DNA of 64,000 bases from Lampris incognitus (taxonomy: Eukaryota > Chordata > Actinopteri > Lampriformes > Lampridae): the NCBI RefSeq assembly GCF_029633865.1, contig NC_079223.1, positions 39,024,706 through 39,088,705 on the forward strand, read 5' to 3'. Made by a program: the position numbers and the translations under genes. Positions 11,705 to 60,900 of the stretch are shown here, piece by piece. How positions within the stretch are numbered: the first letter of the stretch is position 1; every line of letters begins with the position of its first letter. The notes beneath the pieces were generated by a model. The model had not been told where the DNA came from, did no database searches, and saw only the letters and a list, made by a program, of their open reading frames with translations.

Positions 11705-11888
11705 AGAATTGGACCAGAGGGGGGCGTGGCCGGGACGTCGAGGATGTAGGACACGTTTCTCTATTGCTCCTGAGTTAGTGACCAAATTTATATATTTAAT
11801 CTCGCTAAATCGTGCATGTCTTTGGTGGTCAAGCGTCTAAAGAGTCCTTTAAACGATTCACACTATATTTGAGGACTTTGAAGGTGAA

Positions 11889-17374: not shown

Positions 17375-17792
17375 TGTGTGTGTCTATATATATATACATA
17401 TTTTTTCCTTTTTATTGATGTCCTTGTTGGATGGAGGTGGGGGCGTGGCAAGCTCCGTTGATGAAGGAGGCAGGGTGTATGTGTACATGATGTCTGTGAG
17501 GGACTGTGCTGGGTTGGCTGGCCTGCGGACAAGTGCATTGGAATATGTGTACTTGTATTTATTTATTTATTTTTTTTATTTTAGTTAATTTGTTTTGATT
17601 TGATTTGATTTTTTTTTTCTCCTTTGAGGGTGTGTTTTTATTCCTCATTGTATTCTGGTGTGTTAGTGTATTGTTGGATGTGTTTTGTGTTCATGCTGTA
17701 CAACTTATGAGGACAATCATTTTGTAAATGTTGATTGTGCGGAAAATTCAATAAACAAAGTTCTAAAAAAAAAAAAAGAATTGGACCAGAGG

Positions 17793-19229: not shown

Positions 19230-20520
19230 TAAAATGGACAATGCAAAATGCACAAAATTTCCACATGCGACTGTGTTGCCAAATATCATAACAGCATTAT
19301 GAAATTCACAGATGACACCATAGTAATTGGACTGATAAATGACAACCATGAAGATGCCTATAGGAAGGAGGTGAGGAACCTCATTATCATCATCATCATC
19401 GGTGGTGACTCGCGGTCGGGTATGACTGTCCTCCTTCTAGGTCCGCGTAGGTATCCTTGCAGTAGGACGCCTGTGCATGACAGCTTTTTACATGGAGTGG
19501 CTGATGCGCCTGCAGCCACCACACGGTCCTTGGCAGGGAGTGGCCAGAAACCAATGACATGGGGAATCTAGACGATTGGGGACCACCCTCTGTTGCAGCC
19601 TTCATCTGCCTTCACTGGCATTGTCTTCCGCCAGTTCCACTGTTGAGGTCTTTGTTGGATCACGCTTCGTCTGGAACCTCCCCCTTGACCTATCCGCCTT
19701 GGGTGACCCTACCAGGAGTCAAGCTCCAGACAGCATAGCTCTTGGGATCATTGGTACATGCAAGCTTCTCCACCAGGACGAGGTGGTGATCCAGGGGAAG
19801 GGCAAGGGACCTATACATATGTTGATAACAACCTCTCCCTCAATGCTGAGAAAACAGGGAGATAATTGTTGGTTTTAGGAAGTCCAAAACAGTTCAGACA
19901 CCAGTTTACATCAACGGTGTCCCTGTTGAAATTGTGAAGAACTTCAAATTTTTAGGCATTCAGATCTCAAACTCCCTCTCCTGGTCTCTGCACACCAGTT
20001 GTGTCATTAAGAAGGCAAAACAGAGACTATATTTTCTGAGATGTCTTGAAAAATCCAGAATGTCCACAAAAACCTTGGTCAGTTTCCATCAGACTACCAT
20101 AGAGAGCATCCTTACTGGAAGCATACTAGTGTGGTTTGGCACCCTGACTGAACAGGACCACAAACAACTGAAAGGGATAGTAGAAATGGCTTCAAACATC
20201 ATAGGAACAGCACTGCCACAGCTTCAGGACATGTACACCACCTGTTGCAGAAGGAAGGCCCTAAGTATGATGGAGGACACCAGCCACCCAGCACATGGTC
20301 TGTTCTCCCCCCTTATCTCAGGACAACGCTTACAGAGCATCAGAGCTCCAACCAGCCGCCTCATGTGGGATTTCTGATTTCTTATTATTTTTTTTGTTAT
20401 TCTTTATTATTTCCTTACACATAGTTTAAGGGCTGAGAGAGCCAGGGCACATGCATTTCATTGCATTTGAAGGTACATGGTATACTTTTCATATGTATAT
20501 GACAATAAAGTGAAACTTGA
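19230..20520 (+). mobile_element. Non-LTR retrotransposon fragment (CR1/Rex1-like), interrupted
   Basis: The plus strand encodes the end of a reverse transcriptase. FTDDTIVIGLINDNHEDAYR (19304-19370, around the catalytic DD) is followed, after an interruption at about 19386-19811, by NNLSLNAEKT and VKNFKFLGIQISNSLSWSLH, and then an open stretch to a stop at 20375-20377 (LIKKAKQRLYFLR-like, SIRAPTSRLM). The 3' region ends in ACAATAAAGTGAAACTTGAA near 20520. Fish LINEs with this C-terminus are common; the clade assignment is from memory and tentative. Confidence 0.65.
19386..19811. repeat. Unclassified insertion of about 425 bases inside the LINE
   Basis: This segment begins with an ATC-repeat and GGTGGTGACTCGCGGTCGGG and splits the LINE frame between EVRNL and NNLSL. 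Short similar sequences at the two edges (AGGAACCTCAT near 19374; AGGGACCTATA near 19807) could be a degenerate target-site duplication. I could not classify it. Confidence 0.4.
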
Positions 20521-21248: not shown

Positions 21249-21823
<575 letters not shown>

Positions 21824-21996
21824 GAACTAGAATTTCAAAATGCCTGGAAAAAAGATTGTAAATGGCGGCAAATAAAATAACATACATTTTTAAACACTCA
21901 TCGCCTCACCCAGACATCTACATGCAACCCTATATCAGAAACAGGCTGTCAACAAGCACAACAAAACACAAATCACATATACACATGCACACCTAC

Positions 21997-22476
21997 TCTG
22001 TAGTACACCCATCATTTGCATAGATCCTTGGTTTTTCACCCAGTTGCAGCAAGCATTGCACTGTCCCACCATGGCCACCAAACATGGCTCTGCAAAGTGG
22101 TGTCCGGCCAAAACCCCCTTGAAACATAACAACACCTAAAACTTTTCCACACCTCTGTGCAGTCATTTGTATATAGTATATGTCGGTGACATTCACTCCC
22201 ATAAAGCTAAAGTCTATAACGTAGACTGGTGGAGAGTTCTCTCACCTTTGTGTTAACATCTTCTCCTTTCCCCACCAATAGGGTGGTGATATCTGGCTGC
22301 TTCCCACCCCACAGCCGCTAACACGGCAGTGTTGCCATCGGCATCAGTTATATTTACCATCTGGAGTTGGCTGATCCGCCAGTGGCCTTTGCCTGCCTCA
22401 GCAAACCCAACATGTCTCCCTCAGAAACCCATGTTGGAGCGTGCATGCAGTCATCTTTGGAATCTCTCGTGGCCTC
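21997..22476 (-). pseudogene. iqank1: Ankyrin-repeat exons, possible iqank1, with frame breaks
   Basis: Read right to left, 22476-22246 encodes VSEGDMLGLLRQAKATGG, then in another frame MVNITDADGNTAVLAAV, then in a third frame GKQPDITTLLVGKGEDVNTK up to a GT donor at 22245-22244. The next exon, 22117-21997, gives FGRTPLCRAMFGGHGGTVQC, then LLQLGEKPRIYANDG, and ends at GTAGGT. DADGNTA and GRTPL followed by GGH are ankyrin-repeat signatures. Three frame changes in about 250 bases, each in a short G-rich or repeated stretch, point to a decayed gene or to consensus errors. Human FAM83H is close to IQANK1, an IQ-motif and ankyrin protein, which motivates the symbol; the domain calls are seen, the orthology is inferred. 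Confidence 0.45.
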
Positions 22477-22556
22477 TCTAAGTGACATGAATACTGGAAA
22501 AAATTCTGATATTCTTGTAATGTAGGGCATTTCTTGGAAGACGGTGACTGCTTCTT

Positions 22557-22870
22557 ATGACGAATCTTTATGATTCATATAAAAAAAACTCATATAACAC
22601 TTTGATTTTTCTCCACTACTTTTATATTTTCATTTTCACTTTCATTCTTTCATTTCATTTCTTTTCATTTTTCCTTTTCATTTTATTCTATTCTTTTTAT
22701 TTCATTTTTATTTTGTTTTTATTGTTATTTATTATTATAATAGCATAATATTATAATATAATATTATACAATTATTTCTTGTTTTATATTCTTTATTTTT
22801 AGTTTATTTTAATTTATTATTTTATTTCATTTTATTAATTTTATTCTACTCTTTTCAGTTGTGTTCCTTG
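22557..22870. repeat. AT-rich low-complexity tract
   Basis: About 300 bases of T-rich ATTTT/ATTTC-type simple sequence and ATAATATT repeats. No gene is present. Confidence 0.85.
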
Positions 22871-22939
22871 AATCACGCGCAACAATCCATCTTCAATATT
22901 TCAGGAGGGGGCTCACTTATCTTTGGGCAGATAATGTGA

Positions 22940-23262
22940 GTGTGCAACTTTGCATCGAGGCTAGTCACCACTGCAAAACACGTAATATTCAAGTCTGGGT
23001 GTTGTGACTTGGCTAATTCATCAGTCTCATTCATCTCAGTCATCAATTGCAGATGCGTCATTTCCATCAGCGAGCATGATCTCACATCCATGAGAACTGC
23101 TAGGACTTCCTTCCCCTCTCCATCAAACGCTGATCCCAGGGAGCTGCCCCTCTTCCTTTCTTTTCTCGCTGCTGCTTCCTCTTCCTGGGCCGCTCCGCCT
23201 CTTCCTCTTCTCTCCCCCACCAGAGAGAGAGCAACCAAGAGACATGTCAAAACAAAAGACAT
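22940..23262 (-). pseudogene. Charged minus-strand frame, possible upstream exon of the ankyrin gene
   Basis: The minus strand has an open stretch rich in Glu, Arg and Lys (EEEAAARKERKRGSS) followed by VLAVLMDVRSCSLMEMTHLQ and LMTEMNETDELAKSQHPDLN. It lies immediately upstream of the ankyrin exons on the same strand, so it may be part of the same gene. Exon limits are unclear and there is no decisive homology, so this is a weak call. Confidence 0.25.
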
Positions 23263-23784
23263 ACTTGCATTTCCACACGTAGAATTTCAGTTATTGGTGC
23301 ATGAGGGCGAAGAAGAAAAAAACAACCCCGCAACAGTTTATTTGTTCTGTTCAAAAAAAGTTGCAAAACTTATATTCGCCAACATATCAATAACATTTCA
23401 GGATATCAGTCTGTCAAGAGTACCCAGCTGTGCCAGCTTTTCTTCATCCACATTAGACAACCATACATTTATTTAGTTTAGGTTTTTTTCTTTCAGATCT
23501 TATTTAAGGACTATGTCTATGCTTTTTTTTGTTTGCCTCTCCCCCTGGTGTTTCTTATTCGGCTTTGAGAAATGTGACTGCTGCTCCCCTCCATCATGTT
23601 ACTATTAGTTCAGTTAGTTAATTATTCTGGATTTATGGCTTACGACTTACATCACCTGTCATAAAGTATCTCTTGGGTAGCAAAGGGTATCTTTAATACT
23701 CTTTTATAACATTAGCTGACCTCTTTATCGAAGCAACCCATGAGTGCCTCATCGTCCTGCTTCTCTCAGTTTATGACCTATTTG

Positions 23785-24115
23785 GCGACACAGTGTCCCA
23801 GTGGTTAGCACTGTTGCCTCAGAACAAGAAGGTCCTGGGTTCGAACCCCAGGCCGTTCCAGATCTTTTCTGTGTAGAGTTTGCATGTTCTCCCCGTGTCT
23901 GCGTGGGTTTACTCCGGATGCTTCGGTTTCCTCCCACCATCGAAAAGACATGCATGTTAGGGTTAATACTCCTGCCTGTGCCCCTGAGCAAGGCAATGCA
24001 AAGAAGAACTGGAGTTGGTCCCCGGGCGCTGCAACTGCCCACTGCTCCAATACAATAGGATGGGTTAAATGCAGAAAGCAAATTCATTGTAAGAATACAA
24101 TGCCAAAATAAACTG
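23785..24115 (+). repeat. tRNA-derived SINE, divergent 3' half
   Basis: The head has an A-box-like CAGTGGTTAGCAC and a strong B box (GGGTTCGAACCCC). The middle matches the other SINE copies (GTTTGCATGTTCTCCCCGTG). The 3' half then diverges (CCTGTGCCCCTGAGCAAGGC; CCCACTGCTCC; GGATGGGTTAAATGCAGA) and ends near CAATAAA-like and TTCTTTCC repeats at about 24110-24140. It seems to be a subfamily sharing only the 5' module. Confidence 0.65.
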
Positions 24116-24340
24116 GCTTTCTTTCCTTCTTTCTTTCTTTTTTCTGGCGGGCAAGCAAACTGACGCATGGCCCGTTGGATGGCCCATACAGCTCAGTTTT
24201 TTCCTGTTGGCTCCACAACCATTGCAACAACATGAAGATGCAAGATTAGACAGATCCCCCCCCCCCCTTCAGTATAGTCATAATCATGTGCTGCATCACT
24301 ATGTGTGTGCCATGATAGGATAGACAAACAGTGAAAGTAA

Positions 24341-24870: not shown

Positions 24871-25179
24871 GATGCGCAGAATAAGAAATATCTTACATAT
24901 AATAGGGGTGCCCTGATGGACGACCTAATAGGTGAGGTGAGGTGAGGTTACATAAAAGGCCATTTGTGGAACCAGAAATGGTTCTTCTATGGCCTCACTC
25001 CATGTTTAAATCCTGAATTAATTCAACGAAACAATAATTCAACGAAAAACATTAAACTGTAAATGTTGAAACATGACAGGAGCATGGACTTTCAAGAGTC
25101 AAAAATGCACTATCGCGCATTGGAACTTTGTCATTTTCCATTCTTCTCATTTAACAATGTTATAATAATAATAATGATC

Positions 25180-26372
25180 TGGGTCGGAGCCTCACAGACT
25201 GACTACAGGCATTCCACAGGGTTCAGTTCCGGGTCCTCTCCTTTTCTCCTTGTACACGACATCCCTGGGTTCTATTATTCACTTGTATGGCTTCTCTTAC
25301 CATTGTTATGCTGATGACACCCAGCTGATCTTGTCCTTTTCTCCCTCTGACACACAAGTAGAGACACGCATTGCTGCGTGCTCGACTGACATCTCGGAGT
25401 GGATGGCGACACACCACCTGAAGCTCAATCTGGACAAGACAGAGCTGATGTTCCTCCCTGGGAAAGGTTGCCCACACCGAGACCTGGCCGTAACCATTGA
25501 CAACACCATGGTGACACCAACTCGGACTGTGAGGAGTCTGGGTGTGATCCTGGATGACCAACTGTCGTTTGCTGAAAACGTTGCATCGGTTGCTCACTCC
25601 TGCAGATTTCTCATCTATAACATCAGGAGGATTCGCCCATTCCTCACCGACGAGATGGTACAGGTGCTCATCCAGGCTCTGGTCATCTCCCGGCTGGACT
25701 ACGGCAACTCCCTCCTTGCTGGCGCCCCGGCGTCGGCCATCAGACCTCTGGAGCTTGTTCAGAAAGCTGCAGCTCGTCTGGTGTTCAACCGCCCTAAGTT
25801 TGCCCACACAACGCCCCTTCTCATGTCACTACACTGGCTCCCAGTAGTTGCTCGCATCCAGTTTAAGACTCTGGTGCTAGCCTACAGGGCAGTGAAAGGA
25901 ACAGCTCCTTCCTATCTCCAGGCCATGGTCAAGCCCTACACCCCCGCCCGACCACTTCGCTCTGCTGCCTTGGGACGCCTGGTTGCCCCGTCGCTCAGTG
26001 GCCCTTGCTGCCGATTGACTCGGTCACGGCTCTTTTCTGTCCTGGCCCCACAGTGGTGGAATGAACTCCCAACTGATGTCAGGACAGCGGAGTCGCTGCT
26101 CATCTTTCGGCGCAGGTTGAAAACTCACCTTTTTAAGAACTACTACCCTGTTACTTGTTCTTAGCACTTATTGTAGTCACTCATTTAAAAAAAAACTCTT
26201 TCTTGCACTTTTACTTTAGCACTGGTTTTGCTCTTAGATGCTTGTTTAGATGCACTTATGACCTCCGATGACTAGTAGTTCTCCTGATTTCCTACGTTAA
26301 ATGATGCACTTATTGTGAATCGCTTTGGATAAAAGCGCCGGCTAAATGACTGTAATGTAATATAATGTAATG
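25180..26372 (+). mobile_element. L2-clade LINE, 5'-truncated copy
   Basis: The sequence opens inside the reverse transcriptase (GIPQGSVPGPLLFSLYT-like sequence at 25207-25250) and is open from 25250 to 26164 as 304 codons. It contains the catalytic YADDTQLILSFSPSDTQVE (about 25306), HLKLNLDKTELMFLPGKGCP, then SLHWLPVVARIQFKTLVLAY and APQWWNELPTDVRTAESL. The 3' untranslated end has GCTTTGGATAAAAGCGCCGG and a TGTAA/TAATG tail to about 26372. This copy is younger-looking than the one at 7356-10520, since its C-terminal frame is unbroken. Confidence 0.88.
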
Positions 26373-28504
26373 ATGATAATAAACTGTATTTGTATAGCAA
26401 CTTTCATACAAACACACACAGCTCAAAGTTCTTTACAATAAGGAAGTCACAAGTACCAAAGCGCTTCACATAAAATGAACATAAAAACAGGGATATAGTC
26501 CATCCATCCATTATCCAAACCGCTTATCCTTATTCAGTACCAATTCCTCAAAAATGTACTCATGCACAAGTACTCTAGTACTTCTAACTAATTGCTACCC
26601 ACCGACTGGCAATGACTATAGCACAGTTCATGAAACGATCCCACCCCCAGTATATCTAACTGGCTTATATGAAGTCTATCATTTAGCACACTGAGTAAAC
26701 AACTTTGCCAGTGCCTCCGTGTGCACGGCGCCTCAGTGCCTTACAGCAAACTCACCTTGACCAGAACTAGTCATTCTGGCTGAGGTTGTGTTATCACAAA
26801 CTGTCATATCAGATATACTATGTGTGTTTAAACATTCTTGAAGACCATGAAGGAGGGGTTGTGATACTGCTTTGTAATTAGGGTCTGAAACACAGTCGGT
26901 CATTGCAAACCGAGTATTTACACGGGGGCTCCGGGGGTAAGAGGAGAACAGTAATGAATCTGGCCCTATTGTATGCAGCGCAACAACTATCTGTGTTTTG
27001 CGAGTACATCATTTTTCACTGTTGTTACTCGGACTGCTCTTCCGTGTGCCTTGGGAGGTGCCCAAGGGGAACAATAAGGGATTGTCTTCAAGTCTCCGCT
27101 TGAGTGGTTAGGTTGCATCATTTCCTCTACACAACATTACAGATTTCATCCTGACAAGGCTATTGTTACTCTCACTGTGGAACAAGCTGGTGTCCGGTGT
27201 CACGTGAGCTGCATTTACACTGGACATGTGAAGCGTATCCGAGAGTTGATTCAAAAAACATCTGCAACGTGAGGGCCCAAATCCAACTGATTCACCCACT
27301 CTCACTTAATCTCCCTTTCTTCGTGCGTAACCAACTCCATTTCTACTTATGCCTTAGTTTATTCCTTGTAAGGCTGAAGTAAAATCTATCTTTTCAAGAG
27401 TGCGAATGGAGCGAGGTGGATTATCATGGGTTTAGTGGAGGGTAAACAGGTCTAAACACATGTCTTTATGCAATAATCCAGGTAAGGAAATCAAAGAAGG
27501 TTGAGTTGGGTTGAAGATGAGTACCCAGATGAACTGAGTCAACCTTCTTTGAGTGACACCTAAACACAATTAACCCACTTATATATTTTCCGCCTATATT
27601 TCACCCACCTCTTTCAGGACTGATATAAATCCCCATTACATATATTTATAGTATAAATCAAAGTAAATGGCATCACGCTGATAAGTTGCAGCGAATATAA
27701 TGTATTTCAATGGGAAAATACATGAATTTACGCTTTTCTGAAAATATTGCCCATATTAGTTGCTGGTTAGCTAATGATTTGCTTTGCTTTCTCATGTCCT
27801 GGATGCTGTTGGTGTTCATATAGAAACCATAATGTCCACCAAAACAACTGAGATGCTGTGACACCAAGGGAAATTTTTGAATGGGGTGGCCAAATTTTTT
27901 TCTTTTTTTTTTTTCTTTTTGGAGGGGGGCACTCAGAATTTTCGTAAATTATGGAGTATTGTCTTGCTAATACAACTGCAGCTTACATGGCTGTGCATTC
28001 AAGAACATAAGGAGACATCCGTCAAGTGAACACCAACAACTATTTGGATATAATAGAATAAGAATCCTGTTTGAAGACATAGCCAATTGAAAATACTGTT
28101 CTCCAGCCGTCTTTGCCATCTCCCTTGAAGCTGTATGGTAGTTGTGGTATGTGTATACCCCTCTATGCTGGAGTAATTAAACATCTGGAAACAAGCTCAA
28201 GGTCCATAACAGGAAGGTCTCTTGCAAGAATTATAGGAATTCCGATGTGAATACTGTAAGGATGTTGTAAAGTGCTTATTGTTATGTGACCTGACCACTA
28301 ACACGAAATTAGCATCTACTTTTTTTTCTCTGCTTTTAGAAGGTAGGGTGGAAATAGGGGGGGGGGCTGGGTATTTACTGAGGGTAGCCTATACCAGCCC
28401 TGGCTGCCACCTAGATCTACCAAGATCTGACCCCCTGGATTCAACATGGGTCCCATCCCCCATTAAAAAAGAAGCTTACATCGGTGCACTCTTATTTGTA
28501 TACT
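26373..28504. other. Intergenic, small repeat fragments only
   Basis: This stretch holds a short minus-strand SINE end near 26500-26530 (CATCCATCCATTATCCAAAC) and a T-rich run near 27895-27920. It also has a possible minus-strand first exon (ATG at 26774-26772, donor CAAG|GTGAGT at 26756) that could belong to the broken ankyrin gene but is too short to prove. A small inverted repeat (CAAAGAAGGTTGA and its complement) lies near 27494-27557. No supported gene. Confidence 0.35.
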
Positions 28505-28902
28505 TGTTGTGGTCTCACCCTCTTCGTCTCGGACTGCCTCCCCGGCACTCTCTGAGATCTCACCCTCTCCGTCTCGGACCGCCTCCCCGGCGCGCTCTGA
28601 GATGCCGGAGACATCCGAGCGCTCGAGACGAGCGCTGCACCGCATCAGGTGTTCATCATCACAGTCCAGCGCCAGGTGTCTCCAATCGCAATCAAGCACG
28701 CCAGCAGCACTCCGGGCACTCCTCGCTCCCCATAAGAAGCCCCCCAGAACGCTTCTCTGTGCTTCGACCTACTGAACCCTGCGACCCGCCTCTGCGACTC
28801 CCAGTGAATTCCCCGCTCCAAGCCTCAGCCTCACGTTACCCTTCCACGACCCTCTCCTCGGATTTCCTTAAGACCTGCTCTGGACTCGGATCAGACTATA
28901 CT
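28505..28902 (+). repeat. Left LTR, 3'-truncated, with internal tandem duplication
   Basis: It matches the right LTR from its TGTTG start through TTTCCTTAAGACCTGCTCTGG and then stops at the junction with minus-strand internal sequence. A unit of about 44 bases (TCTC(A)CCCTCT(T/C)CGTCTCGG...TCTGAGA) is duplicated at 28513-28601 but present once in the right LTR. Confidence 0.8.
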
Positions 28903-30168
28903 ATGAACGGCTGCCCTGCTCCCTCCAGCCAGTGTCTCCACTCCTCTAGGGCGGCGTGGACAGCCAGCAACTCCCTGTTGCCGATGTCGTAGTTCCTCTC
29001 CGCAGGACTGAAACGCCGGAAGGAGGCGCACGGGTGGATCTTCTGGTCCTCCTCCGACCGCTGGGAGAGGACGGCTCCGATGCCCGTGTCCGATGCGTCC
29101 ACCTCCACGATGAACTGCCTGGACGGATCCGGGTGGGCGAGCGCCGGAGCCGTTGTAAACAGTCTCTATAGGGCCGAGAAGGCGGCCTCTGCCTCCGGGG
29201 TCCAGGAGAAGCGGCGGAGGGTGGAGGTGAGTGCAGTGAGGGGGGCGGCCACACGGCTGAACCCCCTGATGAAGCACCGGTAAAAATTGGCGAAGCGCTG
29301 GAGTTGCGTCCTGTTGGCGGGCCGTGCCCACTCCTCCACCGCTCGGGTCTTCCTGGGGTCAGTGCGGACGAGCCCCTTTCTCCACGATGTGGCCAAGGAA
29401 CTCCGCGGAGTGGAACACACACTTCTCGGCCTTCACGAACAGCCTGTTCTCCAGCAGCCGTTGGAGGACCAGGCGGACATGCTGGTGGTGTTCCTCCTCA
29501 GTCCTGGAGAACACGAGGCTGTCATCCAGGTACACCACCACAAACGTGTTCAGCATATCCCGGAGCACGTCGTTGACCAACGCCTGGAAGACGGCCGGGG
29601 TGTTGGTGAGGCCGAAGGGCATAACGAGGTACTCGAAATGCCCTAGGTGGGTGTTGAAGGCCGTCTTCCATTCATCTCCTTCCCAGATGCGCACCAGGTG
29701 GTACGCGCTGCGCAGGTCCAACTTAGTGAACACCGTGGCGTGAGTGGCTCGAATGTGGAACTCATAAGGGGGAGTGGATATTTATTCTTAACCGTGATGT
29801 AATTTTAACTGACGATCTATGCAAGGCATCAGGCTGCCCTCCTTCTTTGCCACAAAAAAGAAGCCTGCTGCTACCGGGGACGACGAGGGCCTTATGATTC
29901 CTGAGGCAGGGACTCTGATATAATTGCGCATAGACGACGACTCCGGGACGGAGAGGTTATACAACCGACCGGTGGGAAGGGCGGCCCCGAGAAGGAGATC
30001 TATGGCGCAAACATAGGGACGGTGAGGGGGAAGTGAAAGTGCACTGTCCTTACGAAATACGGGGGCTAAATGGGAGGTACACCAGTGGGAGGGGGCACGG
30101 GTCTGAGGCCGCTGGACTGAGTGGGCGGAGCGAAGGCAGTTGGCATGACACTCAACGCTCCAACCCAA
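28896..30168 (-). pseudogene. Ty3/gypsy pol: protease to RNase H, broken
   Basis: Right to left: a protease/RT-leader region (about 30168-29788), the reverse transcriptase ([40 protein letters not shown]; catalytic [12 protein letters not shown]; ending near 29359), and RNase H ([18 protein letters not shown] and [17 protein letters not shown], about 29105-28910). Frames change between segments, so no intact polyprotein is encoded. Confidence 0.85.
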
Positions 30169-30482
30169 AATCCGCCCAGTTGACAGGTGTGGGGGCGTGT
30201 AAAACCAAAAAACGCATAGTTTCTACGTGATTTACCTGTGAGAGTGGGGGAAGCAGTGCTGTGCGTGATCCTACCGAGTGAACGACCATCTTGGGGTGTG
30301 TCTAGGGGGACGAGTGGAATGCCGGGCCAGCGAGATGTACATCAAACACTCGTCTGCCCCCGAATTCAGGAGTGCACCAACAGAGGGAGTGAGTCGTTAC
30401 CCCAAGTGAGTGACAGGAAACAGCTAGTTGTGGTGCTTCTTGGGCTGTGGAAGGGTCGTCAGGCTCACTAGGACACCCCTCG

Positions 30483-31529
30483 CTAGTGAGCCGGGTCTTT
30501 TGGGCAGGCCTTGATGTAGTGGCCCGACCTCCCGCAGTAGAGGCAGAGGTTGTCACGCATCCTCTGCTCCCTAACCTCTAGAAGACACCCAGGATTGCGA
30601 GGGGAAGTGTGAGGGCGGAGAGCGCCCGGGGGACGCTGACCTAGGGGAGGCGCCGGTCGAACGGACGGGGGTAGGTCTATGGGAGGCCCCAGTGCGTGGG
30701 GCGCGTTCCTGGCACCGCTCCCGCAGCCGTTCGTCCATCTGGAGGGCAAGGGTGACGAGCTCGTTGAAGGTAGCAGGGCGGTCTCGAACGATGAGGTCTT
30801 TGGGCTCGCTCGGCCCCCTCCTGTACGCGGTCTTGAGTGCAGTGTCATCCCACCCACTGTCTGCCGCGAGTATCCTCACCTCCAAGGTGTAGTCTGCCAC
30901 CGACCTGGCTCCCTGCTGGATGGAATTGAGGCGGTTGCAGCGTCCTGCCCGTCAGCTGGGTGGTCGAAAACCAGACGGAACTTACGGCGGAAGGCACCAT
31001 AGTCGGAGGCGAACAGTTCAGTATGGCCAACCGCCGCCATGGCCCAGCTGAGGGCTTTGCCGGTGAGGAGGGACATGACAAGGGCTACCTTGGTCTGTCC
31101 TGTCCTGTACGTGGCTGGCTGATTCTTGAACAGGCGCTCACACTGACCAAGGAAACCCCTACACAGCTCGAACTCCCCACCGAAGGCCTTGGGGCAGGGA
31201 AGGTTAGGCTCGAACCGGGGGTCTAGTGTGGGTTGACTCGGAGGGGGAACGTCGGGACCAGGAACGGGAAATCCGGAGGCCGAGCTGGGGGCAGGGACCG
31301 AGGCCAGAGCAGGGTGGTCGCTGATCCTGGAGACTGCTGTTGTGAGTGCAGCGATCTGCGAGGAGAGGGCGTCTAACGCGCTCGTCGTGGCCTGGGAGCC
31401 GGATTGAAGTTGGCTGATCTCTCCAGTGACCTGGGTGAAGGCAGTAGTAAGCTCTGAGTAGAGAGATGCAAGTTGGCTGCTGTGACTTCTTACTACTGCC
31501 TCTAGGGGGACCGGGGTCGGGGATGTCAC
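30483..31529 (-). pseudogene. Ty3/gypsy gag
   Basis: The N-terminal part (31529 to about 30876) has a helical coil (SLYSELTTAFTQVTGEISQL), a Pro-rich segment and a capsid-like region (FEPNLPCPKAFGGEFELCRG; FLGQCERLFKNQ). The frame then shifts, and the C-terminal part ends with a CCHC zinc knuckle (CLYCGRSGHYIKAC, near 30545-30500). The first codon of the open frame is GTG at 31529, so the normal start is missing or mutated. Confidence 0.75.
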
Positions 31530-47014: not shown

Positions 47015-49487
47015 ATGATTGCAGCTCTTGGAAAAATGTACCACATCTCGGCTTTCAGCTGGTACGCTTTTATTGTCAAATCTCTTGCTGACAAGGATGG
47101 AGAGGAGCTACCCCAAGGTATCTTCGTGTATGGCGGGCCTTGGAAATACCTCACTTTCTTGAATCTGGTGAGTGGATTTGCGTTAGATCTGTCGCCTTAC
47201 GCCGGCCCGTATCGCCAATCCGAGAGGGAGGGGTAACGCAAAAGTTTTATTTTGATTATTCCAGTTGCTGCAAATGGTGTATTTCGGAGCGGCTGCACTG
47301 AATGACCTTCAGCTTGGGAAGAAGTCGGGAAACACGCTCGGCAGCTGCACAGACCTCCTGTTCGCCGTCTTCGCCTTCCCGGTGGGCATGGTGAGAAACT
47401 ATCACATGGCTTTCTGGTGTGAGAAACTGTTTAGAAGACCTTGTTCCACTTTTCATCACTGAATGGTAGCCGTGCTTTATTGTGACTCCATTTTTGTTTT
47501 TTTTGTTTTTTTGTTTTTTTGTTTTTTTTTTGCATTTTGTTTAGTTTGTTGTTCTACTTTTCTGGGTGATCTTTGCTTATGACAGGGAGTTGGTCTACCC
47601 AGCCACTATTGATGCCTTCTTCCCCCCCTGGATAAACCATGCTATGGTTAGTAAACAGACAGATTTTATGAGCATTTTATAATGAATATTACATTTATAG
47701 AAGCAGCAGTAACCCCCGTATGTAAATCGTCTCATGTAATAAGCAGACCTCGTGTGTGTCCATAGCACTCCTTTGTGCTGCCCATCTTGCTGGGGGAGAT
47801 ACTGATCCAGCCTCACGTCTACCCAAAGGCCAAACATGGCCTTGGAGCACTAGGAGTTGTGGGTTTGGCCTATCTAAGTTGGTAAGTACCACAGGGGAAA
47901 AAAACGTTTTCCTCTCATTACTGATGTAAACCTTAAACACCTTCACCACGAGTCTAGCTTTGTCCCATACAGAAGTTGATAAACTCCAATTTTAGGGGGT
48001 GTCCGGGTAGCATGGCAATCTATTCCATTGCCTACCAACACGGGGATCCTGGTTTGAATCCCCATGTTACCTCCGGCTTGGTTGGGTGTCCCTACAGACA
48101 CAATTGGCCGTGTCTGCTGGTGGGAAGCCGGATGTGGGTATGTGTCCTGGTCACTGCACTATCGCCTCCTCTGGTCGGTCGGGGCGCCTGTTCGGGGGGG
48201 AGGGGGCACTAGAGGGAATAGCGTGATCCTCCCATGCGTGATCCCCCCCTGGTGAAACTCCTCACTGTCAAATGAAAAGAAGCGGCTGGCGACTCCACAT
48301 GTATCGGAGGAGGCATGTGGTAGTCTGCAGCCCTCCCCGGATCAGCCCCAGATACCATCCGGATGTGGGCCACTTCAGGCAATGATGCGGCACTGATGGC
48401 CTTCTTCTTGCCCTGACAAAACGGATGTGAGCCTGAAGTGACCCACATGTATAATAGCAAATATGGCCCAAATATGCCAAATCAAATGTGGGCCTTTTTT
48501 GACAAAGATGCAGCGCTCTCAGCAACATGTAATCTGGATGTGACCCTGAAGTGGCCCGTGTGGTAAATGGTGAATATGACCCAAATATCACAAAACAAAT
48601 ATGGGCCACCTTTGCCAAATATGTGGCACATACGGCATTGCTATGGCTTGGTTCTGACCCAGACCTGGCAGACAGGAGTGGACCGCCCAAGTGCCATCAT
48701 TCCATCTAGTATGTGGGCCGGAGGAAAGTGTCGTGTGGGACGGGTCTGGGCCGCAGCAATTCTGCTATCTGGGGCAGAGGGGATGGCTCGGAAGAGTGGG
48801 GGTAATTGGCCAAGTGCAATTGAGGAGAAAGGGGGGGGGGTTTAAAAATTAAAAATAAAAGTAAAAAAAACTCTAATTTCAGTGGTTGTGAGTTGAAATG
48901 TGTTGATCTTTCTTAGTAATGGAGAGCGTAGTCCAACGTGAGGAACGACAGGCATCGTTTATCACGCCGTGCATCTGCTGATGCAGATGTCCTGAATAGG
49001 TTACAGATTTATCTGTGACGCATTTTACCACAGTTACACATTTGTTAAGGTCCGAGCAGATGAATGCACAGGAATGACAGTTAAGTACAACAATACGGCG
49101 GACAAATCATGGGACGTACACAGGTTTTGCATCATCGTGTCCTAAAATAGAGCTGCACAAGGAAACTGCGATGATGCATAGTGCTTTTCTTCTTCTCTGA
49201 ACTCGTTCTGCAGGGTGGTGTGGGTGTACCTGTCGGTGGGGATCTGGGTTTATCCCCTCCTAGGCCTCTTCAGCACGGCCGGTCTAGTGGGCTTCTTCTT
49301 TCTCAATATGTCCGTGGTCGCCTCGCTCTATCTGCTGGGAGGCAAACTCAGCAGCTGGGTCTGGGGTACGTCACCATTACAAAAGCCTTTTTGTTTTTTT
49401 TAATGAGAGAATACAACAGGTAACCCCTGCCCTCTGCCCTGATCTCTAGGCAAAGATAAGAAGACGTCAACGGGGGAGAGGAAGTGA
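47015..49487 (+). CDS. adtrp: ADTRP (AIG1 family) membrane lipid hydrolase
   Basis: AIG1/ADTRP proteins are multi-pass membrane threonine hydrolases that cleave fatty-acid esters of hydroxy fatty acids; ADTRP also influences TFPI on endothelial cells. Coding exons: 47015-47167, 47265-47390, 47545-47646, 47766-47881, 49214-49365 and 49450-49487, all GT-AG, summing to 687 bases (228 residues; human ADTRP has 230). The sequence reads as about six hydrophobic segments. The catalytic Thr lies in WKYLTFLNL at residue 47, and the catalytic His in INHAMH is about residue 128; both match the positions I recall for the family. ISAFSWYAF and WKYLTFLNLLLQMVYFG are closer to ADTRP than to AIG1. It ends in a basic tail, KDKKTSTGERK. 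An AATAAA is at 49785. The fourth intron carries a SINE. Confidence 0.93.
47996..48842 (+). repeat. tRNA-derived SINE interrupted by a MITE
   Basis: The head GTCCGGGTAGCATGGCAATC and GATCCTGGTTTGAATCCCC give A and B boxes. The body (CTCCTCTGGTCGGTCGGGGC; GAAGCGGCTGGCGACTCCAC; GGAGGAGGCATGTGGTAGTC) is a second SINE family, different from the one at 4985. It stops at 48345 and resumes at 48775 (CAGAGGGGATGGCTCGGAAG) through GGTAATTGGCCAAGTGCAAT to a G-run and A-rich tail. It lies in intron 4 of adtrp. Confidence 0.75.
48346..48774. mobile_element. MITE with CCCCAGATA inverted ends inside the SINE
   Basis: The segment starts CCCCAGATA (48346-48354) and ends TATCTGGGG (48766-48774), a perfect 9-bp terminal inverted repeat. 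CAG occurs on both sides (48343-48345 and 48775-48777) as a likely 3-bp target duplication; removing the element plus one CAG restores a continuous SINE. Inside are repeated blocks of ATGTGGGCC and AAATATGGCCCAAATAT. A 3-bp duplication suggests a PIF/Harbinger-like source; that is inference. Confidence 0.65.
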
Positions 49488-50177
49488 TCGTCGGTCCCTC
49501 TGTGAGGCAGACGTACCTAATGTGCACAGCCAGGCAGATGAAATCCTTCAACTGCAAGTCCTATAAAGAGTCCAACTCAAGTAAAAGGGCTAATTTCTAG
49601 AACTATGATCTTAGTACGGGAAAATAAGCTGTAACACATATACCTCTAACTTACTTTTTTTCACACGTTATCATGGTTTAATGACGTTGGTGATTGTATA
49701 TTTATCAGGGGAGGAGAATCAGCAGAACAAGGAAGCTTTCAGCATTACAGAACACTTGTATAATGTAGTCATGAAAGCAATGCTAATAAAGTGAGTCCTA
49801 CTTTCTGTGTATGTGTGTGTGTGTGTGTGTCTGTTTGTGTGTGTGTATTTCTTAGTTAGTAACAGAGAACGGTTAAATAATGGATTTATAATGACGGAGG
49901 CCCCGCGTCCACAGGAAGGCCAATTTAATCAGAGTGGCAGCTAATTTAACAGTGAGTCCTTTGTGAGGAAAATGGTTTTCCTCATTCACTGCCAGTTACA
50001 TGTTACCTAGACTGCTAATAATCCATCAGTCATGGGGCGAATGGGAGCTCGTGGTGGAGGCACATTATCGCACAGTCCTGCGTGGTCTGACGGAGCCACA
50101 GATCCCTGAATAGCGGCAATGAGAGCCGGGTTTTGTCGTCCATGAGCCGCCTGCTGTCTCCTACACATGTCAGTCCC
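49488..50177. other. adtrp 3' region
   Basis: It contains the AATAAA at 49785-49790 and a short interrupted (TG)n tract at about 49808-49848. No other feature is seen. Confidence 0.4.
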
Positions 50178-51047
50178 TCAAGTGGATCCTCCGCGCAAGT
50201 CCCTGAAGCCCTTGAGATGGTGGAGATAGTTGGGGTCCGCGTCAACCAATCCAGCTGATAGGATTCTGGCCAGCAAGTGCACATCCTCTTCATTCAGATC
50301 TTTCTGTTGAATGTCAGAATGAATGCAAGATGAAATATCAGTTGTTTATTTTTTTTATAGCATGGTTATGCAAGATCAGAGGTCAACTAGCCTCTCACGT
50401 TTTTGTTGCTGGTGGAGTTTGCAGGCGGTTGGAGTTTTCCCTCTTTGTTTCCCTGTCAAAGACAATAGTCACCGTTTCAGAAGGGCAAATCATTCTACAC
50501 GCTGTCATGCTGTTATTCTCCTGGTGACATTTCCTAACACCATATTCACATTCAGCATCCACTTATTCCAAGCAATATGGTATACTGTACACCCCATTTA
50601 TTATATAGTAATTGTATATTTACTGATTCCAAATGATGGTGAAAAGCAAAGTAAACGATGTTTCCCAGTTATGTTGTGACATTTCTTTGAGAGCCACATG
50701 TTGTTTTGAACATCTGGCGCGTGACACGGTATACACTGATATGATTGAGATTCATAGGACAAAAAAATATTACTGTGTCATTTTGAGCAACAGAAAATGA
50801 GAGAAAATCAAAACGTATGAAAGGAGAAAATTGCATTGGAAACTCACCTCTTTAAGTCCATTGGTGAGGCACATTATGATGAATAGGAGGACGATGACGG
50901 TCTGAACATGTTCAAAGGAAACACCAGAGACATGAAACACGGTTATAAGCTGGAACTGGCATCTACTTAAAGACGATAAAAACAAATAAATTGGTGAAAA
51001 ATAGTTGTTGTTGTTGTTTTTTTACTCACTCCTGCTATGTACAGCAT
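50178..51047 (-). CDS. Candidate small secreted-peptide gene, three exons
   Basis: I do not recognise this gene. Three minus-strand exons join in phase 0 with consensus splice sites: 51047-51030 (MLYIAG, donor GGA|GTGAGT), 50901-50848 (TVIVLLFIIMCLTNGLKE, acceptor TTCAG, donor GAG|GTGAGT), and 50303-50178 (KDLNEEDVHLLARILSAGLV, then DADPNYLHHLKGFRDLRGGS, T, stop; acceptor CAACAG). The product is 65 residues: a short start, a hydrophobic core of about 17 residues followed by CLTNG like a signal peptide, and an acidic-to-basic mature part of about 41-45 residues with no cysteine. It could be a small secreted or single-pass membrane protein. A different frame downstream of the stop is also open to about 50030, so a frame break and longer protein cannot be excluded. 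It lies tail-to-tail with adtrp and head-to-head with herc4. Confidence 0.5.
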
Positions 51048-51249
51048 GTGTATCCCCCACGTCTCCGTCCTGCTTGTGAGATGATGTGTGTCTTAATGTG
51101 TGTTAGGTAGAGTCCTGCTCCAGCAACACCTCATCCCTGTTAGAGCGGAGGAGGAACGTGCCGTGAAGGACCAGAAATACAGGACAAACTGCATTTTTAA
51201 GAGGCACACACACCTGAAAGATGTAATCGTGACATACATGGCGGTGCCA

Positions 51250-51932
51250 TTACGTAAATGAAGGCCTAAGATGGGCTGATATGATGAAAACAGCCCCCCC
51301 CCTCGCTATTCTCTGCATTTTGCTATTGTGAGACAGGAGTAAAAGACAGGAATTTGTTCGTCAGTGGTCTTTGCTTTTACACGAATTCCAATTTCTTTTT
51401 GAAATCATTTGGAAAAAGATCGAAATAGAAGTTTCTTGGAATGATACTTTGGTTTTCTGTAGATATTGCCATATTTTATGAATGAATGCATGAAAACCCA
51501 CCTTGGCAGGTCCACACATCCTCATTCACCTATCTGTATGATATGTCCGAGATAAACATCTCCTGTCTTCTAAACTGCATTTGGTGATGGGGACGTATTT
51601 GCATCTCTATCTAAATGTGATTTTTGGTACTTGGAGAGAATATTAGTCACTTGGTGACTATCCGTTAGATAGTTAGGTGGTTAGTTTCCATTAAATTCGC
51701 CAGAAGGCGCCAGAGTTACAGATTTACAGGACCACCTGATATTTAATAGGCCTCAGTAATTGAATCAGATATTTTGAGTTATTACATGAGGTCATCAGTT
51801 TCACAACATTTTAAAAAGTAACCAGCACACCATCACATTTTTAATCAAGCCAGCTCGCAGAGCAGAGGGCCAGTGCAAGATTGAAAGTAAAAATGTAGTG
51901 TAAGAGGAACCGTGCAAATATTAACCTCATAA

Positions 51933-51968
<36 letters not shown>

Positions 51969-52700
51969 CGTGTGCGTGTGTGTGTGCGTGCGTGCGTGTG
52001 TGGTGTTTGCCCACGGGCTAATACGTTTAAAGTGGTTGAAAATTAATGCTCGTAGTACTCACTTATGTCCATTTGCTTAATTGCAATGCATTTTCCGCTT
52101 GTGATATACATTGTATACGTTGATGATGATGATTGTTATTATATCTTAACCCACAGCGGGGCTCTCCTGGTAAACAAGTCATTCAAGCCCCCGTCTAGAA
52201 CATTTCAGCTGCTTCGCGACTTTTCCTTGTCTGTCACTGCTTGTAGGTAGGACAAAGTATCACTTCCGGCTTGAGCATTTTAATTCCAAAATAAAGCCAT
52301 AGAGCGGTGTTTCTCAACCCTACCTCATGTGCCGCCCCACAGTTAAAAATCTCGATATAAGGTTGTGACCTCTTTTCTGACCTCAGAAGTGAATTCACCT
52401 TTTTTTGTGAACAATTATTTATTGTTTAAGCATCAGCGAAACACAGCCGAGATTAAGTTAAGGGATTCTTGCAAGAGCAACACACTAAGAAAAAAAATCT
52501 CACGAGTTGTTTGTTTGTTTATTTGTTTGTTTTTAAAGCAATACCACCTTTCAGGTTAAAATGTTTAGAATAGAACACGAAAGAGGAAGCCATCATAAAG
52601 GGCGTGATTTTCTAAATGTGTTAATCAATGGCTTTTTGCTTCACTTATGTACATTTTGTTTCATAAATAAATCGTCCCAAACTGTTTCGACTTTAATTTA
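51250..52700. other. Intergenic, no supported gene
   Basis: This stretch holds a (TG)n/(TGCG)n microsatellite at about 51937-52001. The rest is AT-rich with no coding signature. Confidence 0.4.
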
Positions 52701-54999: not shown

Positions 55000-57900
55000 G
55001 AGCGGGCCCTGTGATGGCCCGGTGGCCTGTCCAGGGTGTCTCCCTGCCTGCTGCCCAATTACTGCTGGAATAGGCTCCAGTATCCCCACGACCCTGAAAG
55101 CAGGATAAGCGGTTCAGATAATGGATGTATGGATGGTTATTGGTGTATGCTGTTTTCAGTGTTGAAGAATAATGTGTATATACACTTTGTGTTGTCTAGA
55201 AAACAGCTGACTCCAGTATTGTATGTTTATCTACAATTTTGAAAGAGGAGAATAGCTTGTATGAAAGTAACGAACTCTTTTTTTTCCCTCTCTGTTTGAA
55301 AATACCAGAAACATCAAGAGTTTGTCAGATGTTCAAATTGCTCAGGTAGCCTGTGGATATTGGCACTCACTTGCTCTTTCCAAAGGTGAGAATGAACTTA
55401 TTTATGTAACACCCAGCCTTCAGAACATAAATTTCCTCATTTTCTTATTAATTTGTTCAATTTCATCTTATATTAATATCTTTCTCTTAGGGGGCCAAGT
55501 CTTCTGCTGGGGTCAGAACCGATATGGACAACTGGGTGTGGGAATAGAGGGACAAGGCATTTCCACCCCGCAAGTAATCCAGTCTTTGCAAGGAATTCCT
55601 TTTGCCCAGATCTCAGCAGGGGGTGCTCACAGCTTTGCCCTTACACTCTCAGGGGCAGTCTTTGGTTGGGGGTGCAATAAGTTTGGGCAACTGGGCCTCA
55701 ATGACAACAACGGTTAGCCTTAACAACAGTTAAAATCTCAAGATGTGCTGTAAATGCTCGGATGAGCCTATGTGGTTAAACTAATTTTCCAAAGGTCTCT
55801 TTCAGATCGATGTTTTCCAACTCTGCTGAAGTCTCTTAGGTCACAGAGGGTGATTTACATCTGCTGTGGAGAGGACCACACAGCAGCCCTGACCAAGTTA
55901 AGCTAAACCCTCCCTTTGTTGCCTTTTAGAGGTATAGTGTCCTGGGTGGGGTCTTGGGTGGAGTTACAGTAGTGCACAGCACAGTGGGGAAATGGCCACT
56001 AGGCAAAAATTGGCAAGTTTTGACTGTGGCTGATACATTTGCACACATTTGCTAATTTGCCGGGCAGGCCTTTTCTGTGGTACACCATGTTTGGGTGATT
56101 AAAGCAGCAGTAGGCAACTTTTTTTGCTTTAGCTTATCATTATGAAGTAAATGTTGATTACGCAGTGTAATGGCTATAGAATAATGACCCCATCGACGTT
56201 TAGATTGGTTCCCTATAAGCCTCGCTTTCACTATGCAATTCTGTCTGCCACCATGTATGATCTTGTGGGAAAATGAAGGCTTGGTTTACAGCACAAAGGA
56301 AGTGTGTCAACCATTGTGCAACCAAAATAGGAAGAGGATAGTGCATTTGTTTTACCCAGTAGCGGAAATGTCAGACAGTGGAACAACCAAAGTGACAGTG
56401 GAAACTACCCGGCAAGAGAAAAAGAACCCTGTTAACAGAGGAGGCAAAGAAGGCGAAGAGGAAGAGTGATAGAAACAGAGGTAAAACAAGAGTGAACCTT
56501 GGACGGGTATTCACTCGATGGAGTGAGCTACGGTGTTGTATCGTACTCTGTTTCCCCTTAGCCAGATGAAATTATTTGCATGGAAATAGGTTAGCTATTG
56601 GTTAAGATTAGGTTAAGGTAAGCTTAGGGTTAGGTTGAAGTTAGGTTAGGGTTAGGTTGAGGTTAGGTTAAGATTAATCAAGCATCCCGGTTGTGTATCG
56701 AATTCTGACTAGGGGGAAACACATCTAAACAGGGAAACAGTTCGATGCAACACCCGTGACTTGAGAGGATTAAGAACCTGCCTACTTATTAATACTACCA
56801 GATGGTTACCTCTGCCTTTATCATAGCATTGAGACCGGGGTTCCTAGTTCAAATTGGGATTCTTAGAGTTGTATCTTGCTTTGGACAGTAGCCAGGCTGC
56901 GAATAAATGGAAGTGATCCACTTGTCATTGCGACAGCAGGCAAACAATGAAAACACTTGGAAATGCTAGTGGGGAAAGCTGAAAAGTTTTCTACAGCTGC
57001 TTTAAATAGTGAAAACAAGCAGGTGGTGGGTTTCAGAGTCCATCAACCACTGTGTCTTGGCCAGCCAAATGTCTTTTAACCAATTAGTATATAGTTGATC
57101 AACCGTGCGAGTTACATCAAATCAAGTCTGTTACACTATTGTGTTTACATCCTGTACATTTTCTCTACATACCTAACTCTTAAATGGTGTTCAATAGCTT
57201 TTGGCTTTGCTGTACTCTTCTGCCAATGGAAAAGTTTGAATAACTTGTGTTGTGTTTGTAGGAAGGTGGTGTGTTTACATTCGGAGCAGGTGGATATGGC
57301 CAGCTTGGACACAATTCTACAAATCATGAGATCAACCCCAGGAAAGTTTTTGAACTCATGGGAAACGTGGTCACACAGATTGCATGTGGAAGGTAAGGTC
57401 CACAATATGTTCTTTGTTACATGTGCGGGTACACTACAGAATCTCATGCAGCAAAAATTCTTAGCTATTGAAGTGAAATTTCAGGACTCCTGCCCTATCG
57501 CAGGCTGTTTTATTTTTCGTATCATATAATGGCCTGTACTAATGTAATATCAGTGACGCAGAATCATAGAAATGATGTAAAGGAAAAAATCTGAAATCGG
57601 TTTTTAAATATATATGCTTTTAAGGCAGCACACTTTGGCATACATCCCATCTTCTGGAAAAATGGACTCCTTTGGGCTTGGAGGGAATGGCCAGCTTGGT
57701 ACACGCTCCACTTGCAATAGGAAAAGCCCTGCACCTGTCAAAGGTTCCTGGGTAGCCGCTAACTGTCCAATCTCGGCAAACGCAGGTGAACAGTGTTCCT
57801 AATGCCTACTAAAAGAAGCGTAAACATTATTTGTTGGTTTGCACTTAAATGTTACTCTTAAACATGGTGACTTAAAAGGCAGGGTGAGGAATTTAAGAGT

Positions 57901-60900
57901 GAATGTTGTTGTAATTTTGTTTTACTTTTTTGTATTAATAAAAACAGGGCAGGTCTGCGTGAAAAAGATATATGCTGGAGGAGACCAGAGTTTTTCTCAC
58001 TATTACACTTCTAATGTAAGTTGTCATCTTAGGACTTCTCCCAGTTATTCTGTTTGTCCTTGTCTCACTCCCAGTGAAGTTCAATCATAGTATTTGGTAA
58101 ATAATCAAGAATAGACATTTGTTGCATAATTATATCAAATTAACTTACTAAGAGAGAATGGTGTTAAATGGAATAGAAACTGTCGAGTTATCATTGGAGT
58201 ATGTTGTAATGTCAAATGATGGCCATTACTGTGGTGTTCTGTATTTATCAATGTCAGCAAAATGCTTTGATGAAGATTTTTCTTTTCCTTAGAGGTTAAT
58301 GTAAAGTTAAACATATTCTCTCTCCTAGAACCACCATGTTCCTGATTATGTGAGGATACAGGACCACCATAGAAAAATTTGCACCTTGAATACCGCTCTT
58401 ATACAGAGATGGCTGAGCCACTTGCAAGGAAGACTCCTGCCAGAAATCTCGAAGTAAAACCCTTCCTTTGCAAGCAAATATGCCTCTCTGCATCTTAATC
58501 AGAATAACATTGCTACATTTTCTCACTTGTTAAATCAGTATAGAATTGTTAATTTTTGCAAAGTGGGGAAATTTTCTTTTAAAGTATTGTTTCATAAAAG
58601 TTTGTTTTGAAGCGGCGTCATACTAATTGTGTTATACTTTTCCTGTAGTGAGATTGACCTGGTGTTTTCCTCATCAAGTTGCCTCAATGGGTCTTTCTTG
58701 GCGACAAGGTAAACCATTTTAGGTGAAGTTAATTTTTTACAGTTTAGATGTTTGACATGAAATGAAATATTTTAAAGTGGCACTGGACCATAAATTCTCA
58801 TCCCATAGAATTCAGAATGTCTTTTGCCAATTTACTACTACTACTTTTGGCTGCTCCCGTTAGGGGTCGCCACATTTCTTCCTGTCCTCTGCATCTTCCT
58901 CTGTCACACCAGCTAGCTGCATGTCTTCTCTCACCACATCCATAAACCTCCTCTTTGGCCCTCCTCTTTTCCTCTTCCCTGGCAGCTCCATATTCAGCAT
59001 CCTTCCCCCAATATACCCAGCATCTCTCCTCCACACATGTCCAAGCCATCTCAATTTTGCCTCTCTTGCTTTGTCTTCAAACCGTCCAATCTGAGCTGTC
59101 CCGCTAATATACTCGTTCCTAATCCTGTCCTTCTTCGTCAGTCCCAATGAAAATCTTAGCATCTTCAACCTGCCACCTCCAGCTCTGCCTCCTATCTTTT
59201 CGTCAGTGCCACTGTCTCCAAACCATATACCATAGCTGGTCTCACAACCATCTTGTAAACCTTCCCTTTAACTCTTGCTGGTACCCCTCTGTTGCAAATC
59301 ACTCCTACCACTCTTCTCCACCCGCTCCACCCTTCCTGCACTCTCTTCTTCACCTCTCTTCTGCACTTCCCGTTACTTTGGACAGTTGACCCCAAGTATT
59401 TAAACTTATATGCCTTCGTCACCTCTACTCCTTGCATCCTCACCATTCCACTGTCCTCGCTCTCATTCATGCATGTGTATTCTGTCTTGCTCCTACTGAC
59501 TTTAATTCTTTTCCCACTTTCTTTTGCCAATATAACATCAAATTTATGTTATGATTGTGTTTAAACTGAATAGATGGTGAGAGGCTGGACCAAGATTTCT
59601 GTTAATTTTAGTCTTGATTTTCGTTTTGGCTTTTGTCATTTTTGCCTTTAGTGTGTCTGTAAATACTAACACCTGTTTTCATCTGTTCTGCAAAGTCACC
59701 CAGATCACTACAACACCAGCAGTAAATGTTCTGGGGTTGATATGAATATGGCTCGCCTCCTATTTCACCGATTGGTTCAGCAGGATCACCCCGAAGTGGC
59801 TCAGCAGGCAAGTGCACAACCAATACAATCACTTATTTACTTTGTCATTGTATGCCGTGAGAAGTAATTCTCTATAGTGAGAATTTTGAGTATTTTATAA
59901 TTTATCAATGGTAATACACTCATGTATTTCAACAGATTGCTGCGAGTCTAGAGAAGAACCTGATTCCCAGACTAAGCAACTCTCCTCCAGATATTGAAGC
60001 TCTGAGACTTTACCTCATTCTTCCAGAATGTCCCCTCTTCAGTGACCCAAACACATATGTGACTCTGGCAATCCCATTTGCCAAGTCAGTTGTCAGTCTA
60101 AAAGAAGCTCCACGGAAAGTGCTTGGTAGGGTGAACTATTTGTCATTTCATGTTTAACAAGACTACATGTGTATTGCTTTATCATGTTTGCTATCTTGTA
60201 AAAGAACAGCCTCATAAGATGTATTTTATCTTGCCTTTGCTTTAGGAAACTGGTGGTCTACATTTGAGCCCACAGTCTTCCAGAGAGTGGTGGAATTGTA
60301 CAAGGACGTGGTGGTTTATCTACTGAAGATGCATAAGGTGGGCATCCCACCAACAGAACAGAGAATTTTCATCTGCTTCCTTGACACATCACTCAGATTC
60401 TTGGAGATCCTGCATGCGGTGAGTACTTACAGAATTCATGGGTTTGTCTTAAACAGCTGTCACACTTAAGGGTCATGCTACTGCTATGAAATCTATTTCC
60501 AGAAATCCACAGGAACTGATTCATGATCAAATTTCTTGTTGCCACAGGTGAGCGAGAGGGCAGGACACATCATACAGTATGACAAATTCTACATCCATGA
60601 GTTGGATGACCTGGTAGACATCAGAAATGACTACATCACATGGATCCAGCAGCAGATGTATCCTCTTGTGAGTCCATTGGCATATAATGCTGTCACCTTA
60701 ACGGCTGCTCCATGTGTGCTCCATGACATTTGTCAGAGGTAAACCATACTTGACAACAGGTCGTTTGTTTATGTATCTGTGTCTTCAGGGTCACGATGGT
60801 GCAGTCACCCTGTGCAGGTTTCCTTTTGTATTTGATGCCCAGGCAAAGACCACACTGCTTCAGACCGATGCTGTTATACAAATGCAGGTAATGTATGTCA

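Follow-up and report, generated by a model that had tools for sequence, protein, structure and literature searches.

A candidate four-exon gene for a small secreted peptide between adtrp-like and herc4-like genes in a fish genome

The stretch of DNA analysed here (the window, 64 kb of the Lampris incognitus genome, located on a 55-Mb contig) contains parts of several recognisable genes. At its beginning, at ~751-3500 on the minus strand, there are exons resembling the N-terminal ATPase part of a mismatch repair gene, including a 60-residue piece that matches Pfam HATPase_c; presumably they belong to an MLH1-type gene. A SACK1 (FAM83) domain begins at 34.3 kb according to Pfam, in what we take to be a FAM83H-like gene. 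On the plus strand there is a gene of the Pfam FAR-17a/AIG1 type, which we assume to be adtrp-like. One of its exons (49.2-49.4 kb) scores above the Pfam cut-off and another (46.9-47.2 kb) reaches 24.2 bits, just under the cut-off of 24.5. Its last exon is probably 49450-49487, and an AATAAA that could serve this gene is found at 49785 on the plus strand. Pfam also finds RCC1 exons from ~54.1 kb and, at 63.2-63.5 kb, a HECT exon; together they presumably form a herc4-like gene. By eye, open frames with internally repeated HICFVIFGSYSPFTTRATSGSHP-like units can be seen at 48209-48696 on the minus strand, perhaps a diverged repeat inside the adtrp-like gene; the stretch 48271-48696 has no Pfam match.

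The window also contains mobile elements. A LINE-like retrotransposon at 13555-17374 (plus strand) has endonuclease and reverse transcriptase matches across two overlapping open frames. A reverse-transcriptase frame is found at 8392-9939 (minus strand), with an Rfam match to the UnaL2 LINE 3' end at 7373-7426, and a frame at 25178-26164 (plus strand) resembles it by eye. The G+C-rich block at 29362-30951 (minus strand) appears to be the remains of an LTR-type element, with a reverse transcriptase match at 29362-29781 and, upstream of this match, gag-like and zinc-knuckle-like frames recognised by eye.

On the minus strand between the adtrp-like and herc4-like genes lies the subject of this analysis, a series of short exons whose coordinates are collected in the table. 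The initial annotation of this DNA proposed a gene of three exons in phase 0 with two GTGAGT donors, encoding a 65-residue secreted peptide. The three exons are located exactly at the coordinates given, their lengths are multiples of 3, and the GTGAGT donors are present at exons 1 and 2. The three-exon reading does give 65 residues, but a further exon can be placed between exon 2 and the last exon. It is flanked by an acceptor (...tttgacag) and a donor (AAC/gtgaga), its frame is open, and it is in phase 0. When it is included, the product has 83 residues from four exons, all of them multiples of 3 and all in one open frame. It is more likely that the candidate is better described in this way than as three exons and 65 residues. 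Since exon 3 is in phase 0, skipping it would yield the 65-residue isoform without a frameshift.

Table. Features of the candidate minus-strand gene (positions within the window; a slash marks the exon end)
Feature	Positions	Strand	Description
Coding exon 1, initial annotation	51047-51030	-	ATG, MLYIAG; donor GGA/GTGAGT
Alternative coding exon 1	51519-51502	-	MCGPAK; donor AAG/GTGGGT; same phase; favoured by the ab initio chain
Exon 2	50901-50848	-	TVIVLLFIIMCLTNGLKE, hydrophobic core of the leader; donor GAG/GTGAGT
Exon 3, absent from the initial annotation	50452-50399	-	54 nt, phase 0, GNKEGKLQPPANSTSNKN; sequon NST
Last exon (exon 4)	50303-50178	-	KDLNEEDVHLLARILSAGLVDADPNYLHHLKGFRDLRGGST and TGA stop (KDLNEED...RDLRGGST*)
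Possible poly(A) signal	49924-49929	-	ATTAAA, 249 nt beyond the peptide stop; nearest of three downstream

The choice of exon 1 is uncertain, and the two versions in the table are both candidates. The ATG at 51047 has an in-frame TAA 16 codons upstream (51095-51093) and a C at -3; the ATG at 51519 has an A at -3, and the MCGPAK exon joins exon 2 in phase, giving a chain of 19.9 bits (see below) versus 15.2 with the other start. At the other end, further minus-strand ATTAAA motifs are found at 49682 and 49404. With the plus-strand AATAAA at 49785 and the minus-strand ATTAAA at 49929, the adtrp-like gene and the candidate would converge, and their coding parts need not overlap.

The splice sites are of uneven quality. 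They were scored with a vertebrate matrix and ranked against the 7500 GTs of the window and the 8425 AGs on its two strands; the splice matrices and the codon table are approximate, so that the absolute bits are rough, and the comparisons with null sequences use the same tables. The donor of exon 2 is exceptional, being matched by 12 of the 7500 GTs, while the donors of exon 1 (6.3 bits, 296 as good) and exon 3 (297 as high) are ordinary. The acceptors had been called clean, which is too generous: that of exon 2 scores 2.2 bits and that of the last exon 3.2 bits, values reached by 2157 (25.6%) and 1651 (19.6%) of the 8425 AGs, respectively, so that both are mediocre. The acceptor of exon 3 is the strongest of the set (8.3 bits, 182 AGs as good). 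Within 50 nt of the acceptors, branch-type yUnAy matches are found 44 and 31 nt from exon 2 and 34, 27, 16 and 10 nt from the last exon; for exon 3 the only match in the 50 nt before it is at a distance of 3 nt and could not be used. Cassettes of the grade of exon 3 or better turned up in 21 of 2000 intron shuffles and, among 296 overlapping windows of real sequence of equal size, in 15.

The codon bias of the candidate exons is weak. In the last exon, the G+C content at codon positions 1/2/3 is 0.63/0.34/0.61, and the sense frame has a codon score of +7.0 with all five other frames negative; among 10463 open windows of this length elsewhere in the window, some of them transposon coding sequence, 14.8% do equally well. 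The scores of exons 2 and 3 are +1.1 and +1.7, which 26% and 22% of 25496 windows reach. With weights derived from neighbouring ORFs of the window (mainly FAM83-type, a rough training set that is partly out of frame), the scores become -1.3 for exon 1, -2.2 for exon 2, +4.0 for exon 3 and -1.2 for the last exon.

Chains of exons were scored on the minus strand of the region 49850-52600 with a home-made gene finder that adds splice bits and codon bits and subtracts a penalty for each intron. At a penalty of 11, the best chain joins the alternative exon 1 to exons 2, 3 and 4 and scores 19.9 bits. A rival chain that ends in a different last exon (50105-50007) scores 19.7, at most 0.2 below the best. 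The initially annotated start gives 15.2 bits with four exons and 9.9 with three, and the best plus-strand chain in the region scores 1.5 bits. In 5000 dinucleotide shuffles, a chain of any kind reached 9.9, 15.2 and 19.9 bits in 433, 61 and 12 sequences, respectively. When a leader was required, defined in this test as a 12-residue stretch with a mean hydropathy of at least 2.5 in the first 32 residues, the counts among the best 200 chains per sequence were 7, 2 and 0. In a recheck on 3000 shuffles, all chains of at least 9 bits were kept, without any list being filled to its limit, and more donors were allowed per acceptor; at the same three scores, chains of any kind were counted in 272, 38 and 8 sequences and leader chains in 4, 1 and 0. 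With a stricter leader (2.9) and the best 60 chains per sequence, 400 shuffles gave 28 chains of any kind at 9.9 and 9 at 15.2, and no leader chains. Under a third-order Markov null (penalty 11), 30 of 1500 sequences had some chain equal to or better than the real best, and 2 of 1500 had such a leader chain among the best 3000 chains per sequence.

The outcome varies with the intron penalty. At 14 the real best chain is in a different frame (11.2 bits, equalled in 14 of 1500 null sequences), and the best leader chain is the product of exons 2, 3 and 4 with 10.9 bits, a score that leader chains matched in 2 of 1500 nulls. At 8 the best chain has six exons, a version that was rejected since 103 of 1500 nulls score as well, and no leader chain is found among the best 3000 chains.

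The window was also divided into 90 half-overlapping tiles covering both strands, and every chain of at least 9 bits was kept. The tile of the candidate (48876-51625, minus) comes second of the 90, with a leader chain of 25.5 bits whose last exon is antisense to the adtrp-like gene. Leader chains of at least 15.2 bits are found in six tiles including this one, and the others are 27501-30250 plus (59.1 bits), 16501-19250 plus (23.9), 57751-60500 plus (19.7), 21376-24125 minus (18.2) and 9001-11750 minus (16.1). In an earlier run with shorter chain lists, the candidate tile had come first with three rivals, and in the fuller run it is second with five. To judge from their positions and the printed text, four of these five apparently cover transposon or herc4-like coding sequence. 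Five other real tiles thus reach the four-exon score, and the finding is better than chance, yet not beyond it. The initial annotation held that chance would rarely give such a combination; this stands for shuffled and Markov sequence, where leader chains are rare, but has to be tempered by the 5 of the other 89 tiles. The exon chain thus probably exceeds chance, though not beyond doubt.

Searches of the animal's own genome (1.48 Gb) return the locus alone, so there is no visible repeat or duplicate. Whether these bases might be part of a repeat had been raised at the outset, and 125 nt of the last exon occur at a single place. The 83-residue product, searched at E values up to 10, finds its own exons 2 to 4 only, among the best candidates scored; exon 1 is shorter than such a search can detect. 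In the ~264 kb around the locus, no copy was found by tblastn of the product (other matches have E values of 2.8 or worse) or by blastn of the 2.75-kb region. The product had initially been matched to no known family, and the databases agree: the 65-, 83- and 41-residue forms match nothing in Pfam-A at the gathering score, and the 83- and 41-residue forms have no relative among PDB sequences. The single weak Pfam match, to a respiratory-chain membrane protein, is below the cut-off (E 0.11) and appears with the 65-residue form only. A scan of the window with Rfam at the gathering score gives no family at the locus. Seven Cellulophaga phage records found by tblastn (E 0.4) were taken as chance matches, and no relative was confirmed among viral contigs (30 pattern stretches) and prokaryotic genome contigs (282). 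As these collections consist of viruses and prokaryotes, a non-match is expected and says nothing about conservation. Five peptide strings of the product were not found in the literature searched; literature searches on adtrp/herc4, zebrafish and secreted peptides found nothing, and those on the synteny of the neighbouring genes found nothing relevant, judged by title.

The leader of the product has a hydrophobic core, IVLLFIIMCL, followed by T-N-G, which fits the signal-peptide-like N-terminus reported initially (mean Kyte-Doolittle hydropathy over 12 residues up to 3.32). Signal peptidase follows the (-3,-1) rule, and T-N-G fits it. There is a single cysteine, within the leader, and one N-glycosylation sequon, N36, in exon 3. 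The predicted mature product has a net charge of 0. The 83 residues contain no dibasic processing site and no Ser-x-Glu motif, and the C-terminus, GGST, is without an amidation signal. AlphaFold2, run on the last exon alone as a single sequence, gives helices at 5-21 and 24-38 with low confidence (mean pLDDT 66.6, pTM 0.30).

Taken together, the reading we favour (probability about 0.53-0.57) is that there is a gene here. That the candidate is small and single-copy and encodes a secreted linear peptide, belonging to no recognised family among those searched, is given about 0.53. Secretion, as predicted from hydropathy and the T-N-G pattern at (-3,-1), is somewhat less likely than the gene itself. 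The initial proposal of a small secreted-peptide gene therefore survives in its outline, through the rarity of leader chains, the single locus and the lack of a family, and is weakened by the likelier 83 residues, the unsettled exon 1, the weak codon bias and the rival tiles. From the features described we infer transcription, splicing, cleavage and secretion, as well as any receptor or role. Encoded on the minus strand, the four-exon, single-copy gene would face the adtrp-like gene tail-to-tail and be situated upstream of the herc4-like one. Its first exon would supply the start codon and exon 2 the core of the signal peptide, probably cut after CLTNG; exon 3 would encode a hydrophilic linker rich in P, N, S and Q with the one sequon, and the last exon a 41-residue tail, perhaps of two short amphipathic helices. 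The product would enter the ER co-translationally, and a linear peptide of ~62 residues, without a cysteine after the leader and without a dibasic site, would be released and act extracellularly, its likeliest role being that of a ligand or modulator. A more far-reaching version is doubtful: an unannotated single-copy four-exon fish gene, representing a family without a described member, whose two-helix tail is freed without dibasic cutting and whose optional in-phase exon bears a glycosylation site.

A quite possible alternative is that there is no gene at all, and that splice-like sites and open frames which happen to be compatible were strung together from non-coding DNA between genes, helped by the liberty to choose strand, sites and number of exons anywhere in 64 kb. 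The weak codon bias and the two mediocre acceptors speak for this, as do the first and last exons, which can be interchanged within 0.2-0.4 bits, and the five other tiles, one of them scoring far higher than the candidate. It is harder to reconcile with the scarcity of leader chains, both at the four-exon score (2 of 5000 shuffles, 1 of 3000 on recheck) and at the best real score in Markov sequences at a penalty of 11. Exon 3 also argues against it, being an additional in-phase exon that has the strongest acceptor of the set and was not used in choosing the locus. In addition, the scores of four of the five rival tiles are apparently due to transposon or presumed herc4-like coding sequence. 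If there is no gene, the locus still gauges how often attractive spliced peptides arise, with 6 of 90 tiles at or above the four-exon score.

Two other readings keep a transcript or a protein. The locus could produce a spliced lncRNA, or a weakly translated transcript, divergent from the herc4-like gene and with an incidental open frame; the exceptional donor of exon 2 next to weak codon bias would fit, as splicing is possible without a selected peptide, but four exons that are open in the same frame and multiples of three, with a hydrophobic leader at the start of that frame, make this quite improbable. The second modifies the gene reading without excluding it: a real small protein would be kept in the membrane by an uncleaved signal anchor. 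The MLYIAG form has a 19-residue mean hydropathy of 2.6 and no basic residue ahead of the core, and the basic residues are found behind it (KEGNKEGK), as could be expected of an anchor. However, the core is short for an anchor, the T-N-G that follows fits signal-peptidase sites, and the alternative start, MCGPAK, puts a basic residue ahead of the core. A signal anchor is unlikely, although less so than a non-coding transcript.

Returning to the secreted-peptide reading, the candidate can be compared with known groups of small secreted proteins. Peptides of the Toddler/Apela type, short secreted vertebrate peptides that annotation overlooked, share a length below 100 residues, a signal-peptide-like leader and a location concealed in supposedly non-coding sequence. 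Toddler/Apela was recovered along with other conserved small ORFs in a study whose very short ORFs are nearly always within one exon, while longer ones sometimes have introns (PMC4568590). Unlike this type, the candidate has four small exons, and it has no sequence match in the libraries searched. The prohormone and neuropeptide precursors have dibasic sites, and a leader followed by a linker and a helical C-terminal segment. The candidate resembles them in size and in this order of leader, linker and helical segment, the last being a low-confidence model here, but it was rejected as such a precursor for its lack of dibasic sites in 83 residues and of an amidation signal at the GGST end.

A third group is the SCPP family (secretory calcium-binding phosphoproteins), in which Ser-x-Glu phosphorylation motifs are found and the signal peptide is encoded in a single exon after an untranslated exon 1. 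Short exons, phase-0 introns (3 of 3 in the candidate model) and a secreted product, here predicted, are shared with the candidate; virtually all SCPP introns are in phase 0 (PMC6732285). In either start model the leader of the candidate would be divided between exons 1 and 2, each start being in a separate 18-nt coding exon, a provisional difference from SCPP genes given the unsettled exon 1. SCPP membership was rejected on features, Ser-x-Glu being absent from the 83 residues.

Small multi-exon secreted peptides easily escape gene finders, and some of them prove to act in signalling. Should the present locus be transcribed and conserved, it would provide a new candidate ligand whose position is defined and which comes with an exon map and testable junctions. 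It is worth noting that the window contains a second leader-bearing chain, MSFVLTCLLVALSLVGERRGRGG..., at 21376-24125 on the minus strand; it scores 18.2 bits, and an open frame is found there at 22873-23286.
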